A DNA stretch of 36,305 nucleotides, taken from Caldilineales bacterium. Lineage in GTDB: Bacteria; Chloroflexota; Anaerolineae; J102. The position numbers and the translations under genes were made by a program. Under the pieces are notes generated by a model. It did no database searches, was not told where the DNA came from, and saw nothing but the letters and a program-made list of their open reading frames with translations. Location of the stretch: positions 1-36,305 of the forward strand of contig JAIBAP010000060.1 in NCBI GenBank assembly GCA_019695115.1, read 5' to 3'. This document shows, piece after piece, positions 14,181-18,742 of this stretch; the first letter of the stretch is position 1, and the number at the start of each line of letters is the position of its first letter.

Positions 14181-14189
14181 TGCTACAAT
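14181..14189 (+). promoter_or_regulatory. Extended -10 of the DUF2207-SPFH cassette
   Basis: TGC-TACAAT is an extended -10 with predicted start near 14196. It favours the ATG at 14242 over the upstream in-frame ATG at 14188, which overlaps the box. No clear -35 is visible. Confidence 0.5.
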
Positions 14190-14241
14190 GACATCGCTGT
14201 ATGGTTCAAATCCTCAATTCTCCGGTGGAGTCTTAGCAAAG

Positions 14242-16212
14242 ATGCGTACCACATGGTTCCGTTGGTTGGCGCTGGCAGTGTTGCTGATGCTGGCAACCAT
14301 CCTGCCTGCGGCGGCCCAAGAAAAGACACTCTTCTGGGAACGGTTCGACGTCGACATCAACGTCAACACCGATGGCAGCTTCGATGTCGCTGAATCGCAA
14401 CGGATCGTCTTTACGAGCGGCACGTTCACCTTTGGCTATCGCAGCATCGACACCCGCCTGCTAGAGAACATCACCGATATCCAGGTGCAGGACGAGACCG
14501 GCTACTATGTCGAGAACGCCAGCGAGTTGCCGGGCACCTTCACCGTCAGCGACACAGGCAGCAGCGTTGGCATTCGCTGGTATTTCGAGCCAGCCGCCGA
14601 CGAGACCCGCAGCTTCATCATCAGCTACCGGGTTCTGGGGGGATTGCGCTACTACGAGGGCGGCGACCAGATTTGGTGGCAGGCGGTGTATGGCGACCGG
14701 GCTTTCCCGGTCAACGAGAGCGTCGTCACCATCCATGTGCCGGCGTCGGCCGAGATCCAAAACCTGGACACCTACTTCACCCAGGCTGCGATCGAAAAAC
14801 TGGACGCCCAGACCGCCCGCTTCACCACCAACGAGCGCATCCCTTCCAACCAGGCGCTCGAGGTGCGCGCCCAGTTCACACACGGCGTGGTGGCCGGCGC
14901 GCCCGCTGCCTGGCAAGCGGCCGAAGACGCGCGCGCGGCCCAGGCCGAAGCCCAGCAGGCCGCTCAAGAGCGCTGGGGACCGGTGGCCGATACGCTTGGG
15001 CTGGCCGTTTCGCTCATGCTCCTGCTGCTGGCACCCATCGGCCTCTATCTGGCCTGGTACCTGCGCGGGCGCGACGCCCCCACCGATTTCGCCGCCGAGT
15101 ACCTGCCGGAGCCGCCCTCTGACATGCGTCCCGGCCTGGTGGGTTCACTGCTAGACGAGCGCGCCGATATGGAGGACATCCTGGCTACGCTGGTCGATCT
15201 GGCCCGCCGCGGCTACGTGCGCATGCAGGAGTTGGCGCCCGGCAAGCCCGACCTCTCCGGTCAGGGAGCGTCTGATTTCCAGTACACCTTGCTGAAGCAA
15301 CCTGACGAGGAGTTGAAGGGATATGAAAAACTCCTGCTTACCTCACTGTTCGGCGATCATCAGGAGCGCAAGCTCTCGGATCTGAAGACGAAATTCTACG
15401 TCCACCTGCCCAAGCTCAAGGCGTCGTTGTACGAAGAAGTGGCGAGCGCCGGCCTGTTCATTGCCAACCCTGATCGCGTGCGCAATCGTTGGACGGTGTA
15501 TGGCGTCGTGGCGCTGCTTGGCGCCGTCGCCTTTGCCTGCGCCGGGACGGCGGCGCTTTCCTCCTACACCGATTTCGCCCTCTGCTTGCCGCTTGGCCCG
15601 GCCATCTTTGCCTTTGGTCTCTTCTTCCTGGCCCGCTACATGCCCCGCAAGACGGCGGCGGGGGCCGAGCAAGCTGCCCGCTGGAAGGCCTTCCGCACCT
15701 ACCTCACCCAAATCGATCGCCACACCGACCTGGCCCGCGCCACCGAGCTTTTCGACCGTTACCTCCCCTATGCCATTGCCCTCGGCCTGGAAAAGGAATA
15801 CATCCGCAAGTGGGCAAACGTGCCTGTCGCCTCGACGCCGCCCTGGTATGTGCCCTATCCCCGCCCCTACTACGACCCCTATCGCGGTTACGGCTCCCCC
15901 CGCGGCCCCATCCGCGCCGGCGCGGCCCCGGCCCCTGGCCCTGCGCCTCGTCCGGCGGAGCAGGGAAGCGGCATGGGCGGGTTGGGCGATGCCAGCCGGG
16001 GCATGGCCGGCGGCCTGGCGAGTATGAGCTCGGGCCTGAGCACCATGCTCTCGAGCGCCGCCTCCACCCTCACCAGCCGGCCGACGCCCCCCAGCAGCGG
16101 TTGGACGTCCAGCGGTGGCCACGGCGGCGGTGGGTGGAGCGGCGGTGGGTGGAGCGGCGGCGGCGGCGGCGGTGGTGGCGGCGGTGGCGGTGGAGGAGGC
16201 GGTTTTGGCTGA
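14242..16212 (+). CDS. DUF2207 domain membrane protein with Gly-rich C-terminus
   Basis: A 656-residue DUF2207 protein. The signal peptide has a hydrophobic core WLALAVLLMLATILP and probable cleavage near AAAQ. The extracytoplasmic DUF2207 domain (about 25-235, starting ERFDVDINVNTDGSFDVAES) resembles a beta-sandwich. It is followed by a helix at about 252-274, a cytoplasmic region with PPSDMRPGLVGSLLDERADMEDILATLVDLARRGY, two further helices around 420-470 and the typical FDRYLPYAIALGLEKEYI. The tail is Ser/Gly, ending in a run of about 16 Gly after GGWSGGGWSGG. A role in envelope or cell-surface regulation is inferred. It is the first gene of the SPFH cassette. Confidence 0.88.
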   Translation: MRTTWFRWLALAVLLMLATILPAAAQEKTLFWERFDVDINVNTDGSFDVAESQRIVFTSGTFTFGYRSIDTRLLENITDIQVQDETGYYVENASELPGTFTVSDTGSSVGIRWYFEPAADETRSFIISYRVLGGLRYYEGGDQIWWQAVYGDRAFPVNESVVTIHVPASAEIQNLDTYFTQAAIEKLDAQTARFTTNERIPSNQALEVRAQFTHGVVAGAPAAWQAAEDARAAQAEAQQAAQERWGPVADTLGLAVSLMLLLLAPIGLYLAWYLRGRDAPTDFAAEYLPEPPSDMRPGLVGSLLDERADMEDILATLVDLARRGYVRMQELAPGKPDLSGQGASDFQYTLLKQPDEELKGYEKLLLTSLFGDHQERKLSDLKTKFYVHLPKLKASLYEEVASAGLFIANPDRVRNRWTVYGVVALLGAVAFACAGTAALSSYTDFALCLPLGPAIFAFGLFFLARYMPRKTAAGAEQAARWKAFRTYLTQIDRHTDLARATELFDRYLPYAIALGLEKEYIRKWANVPVASTPPWYVPYPRPYYDPYRGYGSPRGPIRAGAAPAPGPAPRPAEQGSGMGGLGDASRGMAGGLASMSSGLSTMLSSAASTLTSRPTPPSSGWTSSGGHGGGGWSGGGWSGGGGGGGGGGGGGGGGFG

Positions 16213-16216
16213 TAAC

Positions 16217-16274
16217 AACCAATAACCAATAACTAATAACCGGTTATTGGTTATTGGTTATTGGTTATTGGTTA
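16217..16274. repeat. Inverted heptamer array (AACCAAT)3 / (GGTTATT)4
   Basis: Three AACCAAT-type units (16217-16241) abut four and a half units of the reverse-complement heptamer GGTTATT (16242-16274), centred on AACC/GGTT. The RNA would form a long A/U-rich hairpin right after the DUF2207 stop codon, so it may terminate, attenuate or stabilise the cassette transcript. Confidence 0.85.
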
Positions 16275-16330
16275 GCGATAGTTCGACGACCTTCTGCATA
16301 TTTGCATCATTCGCTCAGGAATCTCGCTTT

Positions 16331-17014: not shown

Positions 17015-17593
17015 ATGAGTCTTGCTGATAGCGCCAAGAGCGGCCTCACTGCCGCCGGTGGTCTTCTCGACAAACTTCCCGTCATCGGCGCCTACCGCGC
17101 CAAAGAGATGCGCCGCGAGGCCGACAAACGCCTGCGCGAGACCGTCGCCCGGCGCCTGGAATCCTACCGCCGCAAGCTGACCGGCATGGAGCGAGATCTG
17201 GTCTCGGCCGGCCGGCTACGCAGCCTGCCTGACCTGGAACGGGCCGTCGGCCGGCTCCAGCTTCTGATCGACCGCATCCGCACCGCCGCCTATGGCTACG
17301 CCCCCTTCTTCGACCTCAACAAGGTGCGCGAGCCTGAACTCGAACGACTGATCGGCTTCGACCAGGCCATCGGCGAAAAAGTCGACGAGATCAACACCCG
17401 CATCGAGGCGTTGAACGCCGCCATGCAAACGGGCGAGGGCCACCAGAAGGCGCTGGATGAACTGATGGACGCTCTCAACGCCCTGCACGCTGATTTCGAC
17501 CAACGCTCACAGGCCATGATCGGCGCCGCCGTCAGCCCGGCGATGCCCGACCCCAGCCTTGACGCTCTCCCTTCCCCCGACGCCGGCCACTAA
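17015..17593 (+). CDS. Coiled-coil protein of unknown function, partner of SPFH gene
   Basis: A soluble, largely helical 192-residue protein. Heptad-like charged helices cover about residues 28-65 (YRAKEMRREADKRLRETVARRL), 70-90 and 118-165. A middle segment, TAAYGYAPFFDLNKVREPELERLI, is distinctive. The last 25 residues are Pro/Ala-rich. In size and helicity it recalls PspA/IM30 proteins (about 220 residues), but their N-terminal amphipathic signature is not present and I do not call it PspA. The ATG at 17015 has TCGGAGGAA about 10 nt upstream. It is 36 nt before the SPFH gene, so a functional pair is likely. Confidence 0.8.
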   Translation: MSLADSAKSGLTAAGGLLDKLPVIGAYRAKEMRREADKRLRETVARRLESYRRKLTGMERDLVSAGRLRSLPDLERAVGRLQLLIDRIRTAAYGYAPFFDLNKVREPELERLIGFDQAIGEKVDEINTRIEALNAAMQTGEGHQKALDELMDALNALHADFDQRSQAMIGAAVSPAMPDPSLDALPSPDAGH

Positions 17594-17629
17594 CCCATCC
17601 ACCTGCACCTCCCAAAGGAGAAAACCACC

Positions 17630-18676
17630 ATGCCACGGATCTTCGACATCGTTCAGGCGCCCAACCAGCGACCTGACCAACTCGTTCTGCGCGTCCCCGA
17701 AAAGGACTGGGGCGATATCCGCCTGGGTTCGCAACTCGTCGTCGGCGAAAGCCAGAACGCCGTTTTCTTCCGCGACGGCAAAGCCCTGGACACCTTCCAT
17801 GCCGGACGCCACACTCTCACCACCGCCAACATCCCGCTGCTGATCAACCTGCTTGGCAAGTTGTTCAAAAGCGAATCGCCTTTCAAGGCCTCGGTCTACT
17901 TCGTCAACATGGTCGATCTGCTCGACCAGAAATGGGGCACCTCCGAACCGATCGCCCTGCGCGACAAAGACCTGGGCATGGTGCGGCTGCGCGGCTTCGG
18001 CTCCTACTCGATGGCCGTCAGTGACGCCCAGCGTTTCGTCGCCCAGATCGTCGGGCAGCGCGGCTTCTACAACACCAGCGAGATCAGCGACTGGCTGCGC
18101 GGGCAGATCGTCTCCGCTTTCGCCGACCTGCTGGGCAGCACCCAGGCCGGCCTCTTCGACCTGCCTGCCCTCACCGATGAACTGAGTGTCGGGCTGAAGG
18201 CCAAAGTCGCGGAATCGTTCGAGCAGGTGGGCATCACCCTTAAACAACTCTTCCTGCAATCGGTGAGCGCCACCGAAGAAACGGTCAAGGCGATCGACGA
18301 GCGGGCGCAGATGGGCGCCATCGGCGACATGGACGCCTATCTGCGCTTCAAGGCGGCGCGAGCGATGGGCGATGCCGCCGCAGCCACGGGCCAGGGCGGC
18401 GGCACGGGCAGCGACTTGGTGGGGGCAGGGGTCGGCCTGGGCGCAGGCATGGGGCTGGGCGGGGGCATGGGGGCGATCATCGCCCAGGCCATGGCCGGCG
18501 CCACCCAACCCCGGCCGCAGACCGCCAGCGCCGCCCCGGCCAATCCCACCACCCCGGCCGAAATCCAGGCCCTGCTCGACAACCTGGACATGCGCCTGGC
18601 CAACGGTGAGATCAGCGAGGCAACCTACAACACGCTTGCTGCCAAATGGCAAAAGCGCCTGGCGGACATGAGCTAG
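17630..18676 (+). CDS. SPFH domain protein, YdjI-like
   Basis: A 348-residue member of the SPFH/Band-7 superfamily branch that includes B. subtilis YdjI. The N-terminus ([34 protein letters not shown]) is the characteristic start, followed by the SPFH body to about residue 215 and a helix ([36 protein letters not shown]). A Gly-rich low-complexity stretch (about 255-290) and an Ala/Pro linker follow, and the final 35 residues form a SHOCT-like short helical module ([26 protein letters not shown]). YdjI helps place the PspA homologue YdjF at stressed membrane; a scaffolding role here is inferred. AAAGGAG precedes the ATG. Confidence 0.88.
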
Positions 18677-18708
18677 ACGCGCCCCGGCTGACCGGGTGTG
18701 TCATTCGT

Positions 18709-18742
18709 CTCGGCGGCAAACTCGATCGAGTTTGCCGCCGAG
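18709..18742. terminator. 34-nt perfect palindrome, probable terminator of the SPFH cassette
   Basis: CTCGGCGGCAAACTCGA and its exact reverse complement are directly joined, giving a hairpin with up to 17 bp less the turn. It follows the SPFH stop by 33 nt. The short AAATTCT after it is not a classical U-tract, so termination is probable but not certain. A protein-binding palindrome is the alternative. Confidence 0.6.

Follow-up and report, generated by a model that had tools for sequence, protein, structure and literature searches.

A conserved four-gene cassette of Chloroflexota as a probable membrane-surveillance module resembling the ydj-type Psp module

What task unites four adjacent genes that encode a DUF2207 membrane protein, a membrane-anchored winged-helix/zinc-ribbon protein (here ZnR), a helical protein initially described as a coiled coil (here CC) and a soluble SPFH protein is the question raised by a locus of a Caldilineales bacterium (assembly GCA_019695115.1). 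The stretch of DNA analysed, hereafter the window, comprises 36,305 nucleotides (nt) of contig JAIBAP010000060.1 in a genome of 5.99 Mb, and the cassette occupies its 14181-18742 part. The initial annotation had likened the genes to ydjFGHI of Bacillus subtilis, which includes the phage shock protein (Psp) PspA, and had suggested a divergent envelope-stress system. As detailed below, the cassette is a real conserved unit of Chloroflexota, and it probably guards the cell membrane; the interpretation that we favour, with some reserve, is that of a membrane-surveillance module, a variant of the ydj-type Psp module.

Conservation of the cassette

The list of open reading frames (ORFs) and the family scan place DUF2207, ZnR, CC and SPFH in this order on the + strand, in agreement with the four co-directional genes annotated initially. 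A scan of genome contigs confirmed 421 relatives, the best 80 of which were kept as loci, and all 80 belong to Chloroflexota. CC is present in 77 of 100 relatives searched; in a phylum-wide draw of 400 genomes it was found in 66, namely 55 of the 61 from the window's class and 11 of the 339 from the rest. SPFH follows CC in every one of the 77 loci (of 80) with enough sequence. Where 2.5 kb or more is available upstream, ZnR lies ahead of CC in 41 of 54 loci, and where ZnR is present with 2.6 kb or more before it, DUF2207 lies ahead of it in 37 of 39. In the remaining 13 of the 54 loci ZnR is missing, and CC and SPFH therefore form the irreducible pair. All-against-all clustering of the ORFs around the cassette revealed no further neighbour common to more than nine of the 80 loci. 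Among the 11 genomes of other classes the order ZnR-CC-SPFH recurs, with ZnR in eight and SPFH in nine of them, while L128 and L133 carry CC by itself. A search of plasmids for CC retrieved no relative, its sole match, a rifamycin phosphotransferase, having the look of a coiled-coil chance similarity.

PspA in the cassettes of the sister class

The likeness to ydjFGHI gains substance from relatives in which a genuine PspA gene is part of the cassette. In three of the 11 other-class genomes (L127, L130 and L131), it stands between CC and SPFH, and its product matches PspA_IM30 with E = 3.7e-51, 3.4e-48 and 1.3e-52, respectively. CC occurs in 32 of 101 genomes of the sister class, and in 26 of these 32 PspA comes directly after it, in the order ZnR-CC-PspA. 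Among the other six, one contig ends too early (L175), and five loci have no PspA after CC (L165, L125, L126, L132 and L134), the last four being the four members of family f56. SPFH follows PspA in 23 of the 26 cassettes, two more of which stop at contig ends (L176, L185), and in L173 no SPFH match was found in the 833 nt past PspA. The genes are closely packed, with gaps of 19-171 nt between CC and PspA and of 21-179 nt between PspA and SPFH. The SPFH proteins of 22 of the 23 cassettes with both PspA and SPFH end in zinc ribbons (at least two CxxC per tail), and a C-terminal extension of CC matches DUF4178 in 13 of the 26 PspA cassettes (E ≤ 0.1; best 1.6e-16). A beta-rich, DUF4178-like extension of this kind was noted in the PspA-holding cassettes L127, L130, L131 and L166-L189. 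By eye, the cassettes of L127, L130 and L131 are preceded by FabZ-like and glycosyltransferase-like genes and followed by a gyrA-like gene.

PspA and DUF2207 are mutually exclusive within cassettes: 21 of the PspA cassettes extend 3.7 kb or more ahead of ZnR, and DUF2207 was detected in none of these, whereas it is present in 37 of 39 loci of the set lacking PspA. On a quick tree of the SPFH proteins, built from their first 250 residues with rows under 200 residues left out, a single branch (support 78) separates the 22 rows from PspA cassettes from the others; they need one change, which therefore implies one gain or one loss of PspA, in either direction. The genome of the window encodes a PspA of 228 aa outside the cassette, at C19:2134-2820. 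At that locus (L118, C19:217-2820) PspA is followed, all on one strand, by a small membrane protein and a solute-binding-protein-like gene, both of these recognised by eye.

Whether CC and PspA replace each other across genomes was considered and rejected. In the 61 genomes searched for both, 31 carry both, 15 CC only, eight PspA only and seven neither; with 31 of 61 carrying the two together, CC is no substitute for PspA.

The four proteins

CC (17015-17593, + strand) is all-helical and basic. Its model (mean pLDDT 86, a per-residue confidence score) is a four-helix bundle with helices at residues 30-64, 68-94, 106-139 and 143-173. CC is homologous over nearly its full length to the NCBIfam family NF047596, LIMLP_15305 (E = 3.7e-13, 49.7 bits), which is also matched by all 23 members of the CC alignment A1; since the score lies far below the equivalog cut-off of 210 bits, CC is, as judged from these profile matches, a distant relative of the LIMLP_15305 family. 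In all 61 evaluable members of 72, the amphipathicity of the N-terminal segment exceeds the average of its shuffled versions. The conserved surface of CC includes R33, R34, D37, R41, D86 and G94. A further CC alignment, A2, covers 71 of the 80 loci plus the window, with truncated, over-long and near-identical entries left out.

That CC is not recognisably PspA, as initially stated, holds throughout. PspA_IM30 is matched neither by the CC of the window nor among the families listed for 72 CC members, and the CC profile compared with a profile of 26 PspAs gives a probability of 0.14%, versus 100% in a control against the CC domains of PspA cassettes. The PspA alignment A5 holds 25 of the 26 cassette PspAs (one truncated sequence left out) and the PspA of the window's genome. 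For the monomer model from the structure prediction proposed for 17015-17593, no good ESCRT-III match is among the folds listed, a result that does not by itself exclude that fold; CdvB2, the sole ESCRT-III entry listed, has a TM score of 0.21 and a root-mean-square deviation (rmsd) of 16. The best fold matches, namely IncA (Foldseek E = 0.039; Z = 14.1, rmsd 5.0), SPECT1, talin and V-ATPase subunits, were set aside as clues to function, being within the stated noise for helical bundles. LemA, another helical candidate, is not among the families or folds listed for CC, no direct test having been made, and sequence searches of solved structures with CC and SPFH returned chance coiled-coil or low-complexity matches only.

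ZnR (16331-16861, + strand) bears out the predicted membrane winged-helix/zinc-ribbon protein, with two hydrophobic, putatively transmembrane (TM) helices, a winged helix and a C4 zinc ribbon of the form CPNC...CPYC, the cysteines of which are invariant in alignment A3 (44 of 57 usable ZnR proteins plus the window). With 20.4 bits, ZnR of the window falls just below the 22-bit gathering cut-off of Pfam PCI, and PCI is matched in 35 of 45 ZnR proteins (E ≤ 0.01; best 2.8e-6), more often than any other winged-helix family. The model is of moderate confidence (pLDDT 75), and its winged helix best matches those of COP9/proteasome PCI proteins and of DDRGK1/UFL1 at Z 8-10, the four best matches having an rmsd of 1.4-2.1 over 68-73 residues (8h38, Z 9.9, rmsd 2.1 over 73; 9efq, Z 9.4, rmsd 1.4 over 68). 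The modelled ZnR resembles PCI and DDRGK1/UFL1 proteins in its winged helix but lacks the helical-repeat half of PCI. In DDRGK1, a membrane anchor precedes the winged helix, as in ZnR. Bacterial DNA-binding winged helices come close behind (TM1602, Z 8.5; NiaR, Z 7.9), and the PCI matches and the modelled fold favour, short of proof, docking of proteins rather than binding of DNA.

DUF2207 (14242-16212, + strand) has matches above cut-off to both PF09972 (E = 1.8e-19) and PF20990 (E = 2.2e-45), and its layout, with topology read by eye, consists of a signal peptide, an N-terminal domain, TM segments and a Gly-rich C-terminal tail. None of the four window genes has a TPM match, and DUF2207 takes the place of YdjH. 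Tandem pairs of DUF2207 genes precede ZnR in L070, L078, L099, L066, L079 and L038, and the window's genome has a second DUF2207 gene (L119, C83:659-2497), next to which no cassette gene was noticed.

SPFH (17630-18676, + strand) is a soluble Band_7_1 protein (PF13421, E = 2.6e-58) with a Gly-rich linker and a SHOCT-like C-terminal tail (SHOCT, E = 0.01, below cut-off); no TM segment was seen in it, and the family scan found no zinc ribbon. Across loci L031-L110, L124-L134 and L165-L189, the SPFH domain carries three interchangeable tails, namely HTH_17, zinc ribbons and SHOCT-like. HTH_17, a helix-turn-helix (HTH) family, ends 13 of the 38 SPFH proteins scanned; the SPFH alignment A4 holds 37 of 74 usable proteins plus the window. 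An excisionase-type HTH tail on an SPFH protein is curious, and a Comamonas plasmid protein is annotated alike.

Transcription signals and flanking sequence

The cassette is very likely to have its own promoter, the extended -10 element TGCTACAAT at 14181-14189 on the + strand, as initially annotated. A consensus sigma-70 scan found no -35 element for it, nor is the word rare in itself, occurring twice in the window against 0.61 expected. The promoter reading is nevertheless retained because TGNTANNNT recurs before DUF2207: it lies within 150 nt upstream in 22 of 39 loci, compared with four of 39 for the opposite strand and with a mean of 3.1 and a maximum of nine in 200 dinucleotide shuffles. 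The DUF2207 ORF opens at 14188, within the -10-like box, and the likely start is therefore the ATG at 14242, with which the signal peptide begins.

The genes are separated by gaps of 118, 153 and 36 nt. After the DUF2207 stop codon, in the first gap, a strong hairpin of TTATTGG repeats occupies 16217-16271 (z -8.9), and a single transcript for the four genes is uncertain because of it. The closing hairpin annotated initially is real (18708-18743; perfect, 16 pairs, -31.9 kcal/mol, z -7.0); its role as a terminator finds no counterpart in the terminator scan, from which it is absent, and it has no T run. Between ZnR and CC, runs of GGCAGGTCGCAG-like and GAACACG-like units lie in 16862-17000, and to judge by eye, other loci of these genomes seem to contain similar intergenic repeats. 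The cassette is flanked by a sulfite-oxidase-like gene on the opposite strand (13637-14149) and, on the other side, by a 2Fe-2S thioredoxin-like gene. A YccF membrane gene lies nearby (13265-13633), and YccF-like genes stand just upstream of CC in seven of the 80 loci, for example between ZnR and CC at L051:3314-3898.

Comparison with known systems

The cassette is like the ydj-type Psp module, yet by the tests made it is no member of it: the window's cassette has no PspA, no TPM protein and no zinc ribbons on SPFH. Like B. subtilis pspA-ydjGHI, it places a soluble Band_7/SPFH protein next to two membrane proteins, one of them with a zinc ribbon, and the sister-class cassettes also share PspA and an SPFH protein ending in zinc ribbons. 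In contrast, the window cassette is devoid of PspA, has DUF2207 instead of the TPM protein YdjH, adds CC and ends its SPFH protein in a SHOCT-like tail, and ZnR has a PCI-like winged helix where an NTF2-like domain is reported for YdjG. According to the available passages of the cited papers, on which all statements from the literature rest, YdjG and YdjH of B. subtilis are required for the membrane recruitment of YdjI and PspA, and YdjI for PspA foci (PMC8581546). The SPFH protein of the Bacillus ydj type has C-terminal zinc ribbons, couplings of band-7 proteins with PspA are described, the ydj type being given for Firmicutes, and another class of PspA operons contains DUF4178 proteins (PMC11237479). 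PspA together with DUF4178 is thus common to these operons and to the sister-class cassettes, in the latter of which DUF4178 is fused to CC; spermidine synthase, DUF350 and CesT/Tir were not noticed in the cassettes, no search having been aimed at them.

Links of winged-helix and SPFH proteins to PspA/ESCRT have been remarked upon (PMC10936438). The phyla in which band 7 adjoins pspA have been tabulated, Chloroflexi not being named in the passages available (PMC9239133), where the word never appears; in those of PMC11237479 it appears once. LIMLP_15305, an uncharacterised family of Leptospira to which CC is homologous far below the equivalog cut-off, is named in the accessible literature in one paper, in a table row only. 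Titles and abstract openings on Psp, SPFH, DUF2207, DUF4178 and LIMLP_15305 gave no description of this cassette, supplements lying outside that scope.

Proposed function and alternatives

In the mechanism proposed here, the N-terminal domain of DUF2207, which bears the signal peptide, would lie outside the membrane and sense disturbance. ZnR, anchored by its two TM helices with the PCI-like winged helix and the zinc ribbon in the cytoplasm, would serve as a docking platform rather than a transcription factor, and CC would act as a four-helix adaptor that grips the membrane via its amphipathic N-terminal segment and joins the ZnR platform to soluble SPFH, which may oligomerise into a scaffold stabilising a damaged membrane patch. 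In the sister class, the ZnR-CC-SPFH core would position the ESCRT-III-like PspA, the membrane-remodelling element, a part played by YdjG/H/I in Bacillus; in the lineage of the window, this core would work with DUF2207, PspA being encoded elsewhere (C19) or not detected. A stress role of the window's genes would follow by analogy. More tentatively, the system might be an ESCRT-like machine for membrane repair in Chloroflexota, in which a tethered PCI-type ZnR and four-helix CC on an SPFH ring recruit PspA in one class, the window's class using DUF2207 with no PspA in the cassette; we regard this stronger form as a possibility rather than an expectation.

Several observations weigh against a surveillance module of this kind. 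The window cassette has no PspA, and 15 of the 46 CC-bearing genomes among the 61 are without a PspA match. The two most distant CC genes (L128 and L133) stand without any partner, and the hairpin after the first gene may split the DUF2207 transcript from the others. Since any helical bundle should contain amphipathic helices, the membrane-grip step is weak. TrmB, FeoC, Penicillinase_R and other HTH families match some ZnR proteins, making DNA binding possible. The case for the function in this phylum is drawn from sequence comparison, models and analogy.

A first alternative, that CC is a strongly diverged PspA/ESCRT-III protein polymerising on the membrane and the cassette a self-contained ydj operon, would explain why an all-helical, basic protein with an amphipathic N-terminal segment adjoins an SPFH gene, like PspA in ydjFGHI. 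It is very improbable, given that CC has no PspA_IM30 match and a negligible profile probability beside its control, that its model is a compact four-helix bundle on which CdvB2, the one ESCRT-III entry listed, superposes poorly, and that CC coexists with PspA in the cassettes of 26 genomes; CC as a PspA was rejected. A different role for ZnR, as a transcription factor tethered to the membrane and activating envelope genes, with SPFH, CC and DUF2207 forming its sensor arm, accords with the winged helix and zinc ribbon, with the HTH_17 tails on SPFH proteins (13 of 38) and with the reported tendency of pspA genes to colocate with HTH regulators (PMC9239133, in the passages available). The top folds of ZnR are the protein-binding winged helices of PCI and DDRGK1/UFL1, ahead of TM1602 and NiaR, and PCI is its most frequent winged-helix family (35 of 45), so that we consider such a regulator unlikely.

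The cassette could also be a housekeeping unit for lipid domains or quality control, in which SPFH and an adaptor arrange membrane enzymes with no part in stress and which PspA joined secondarily in one lineage. The near-universal presence of CC in the class of the window (55 of its 61 genomes in the phylum-wide draw), as is usual for housekeeping genes, the 13 of 54 loci with CC-SPFH alone, without ZnR, and the single change in PspA presence on the SPFH tree would all fit. Yet PspA, DUF4178 and a YdjI-like SPFH protein gather in the same sister-class cassette, and a DUF2207 mutant of Streptococcus mutans is reported, in the part of the paper available, to be sensitive to acid and peroxide (PMC10457818); a housekeeping unit of this sort is distinctly unlikely in our estimate. 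The membrane-surveillance module, as a variant of the ydj-type Psp module, is the explanation carried forward.

Significance

With this cassette the Psp system gains named, testable partners in a large phylum that is little treated in the available passages of PMC11237479 and PMC9239133, and the helical family LIMLP_15305/CC is placed in a functional context. The coexistence of cassettes with and without PspA permits a direct test of the role that SPFH and its adaptors play when PspA is absent. If true, the ESCRT-like reading would parallel the archaeal winged-helix proteins encoded beside ESCRT-III and SPFH genes, and the finding suggests that bacteria, too, have a membrane PCI-type winged helix next to SPFH and PspA, a combination that has been discussed for archaeal ESCRT.

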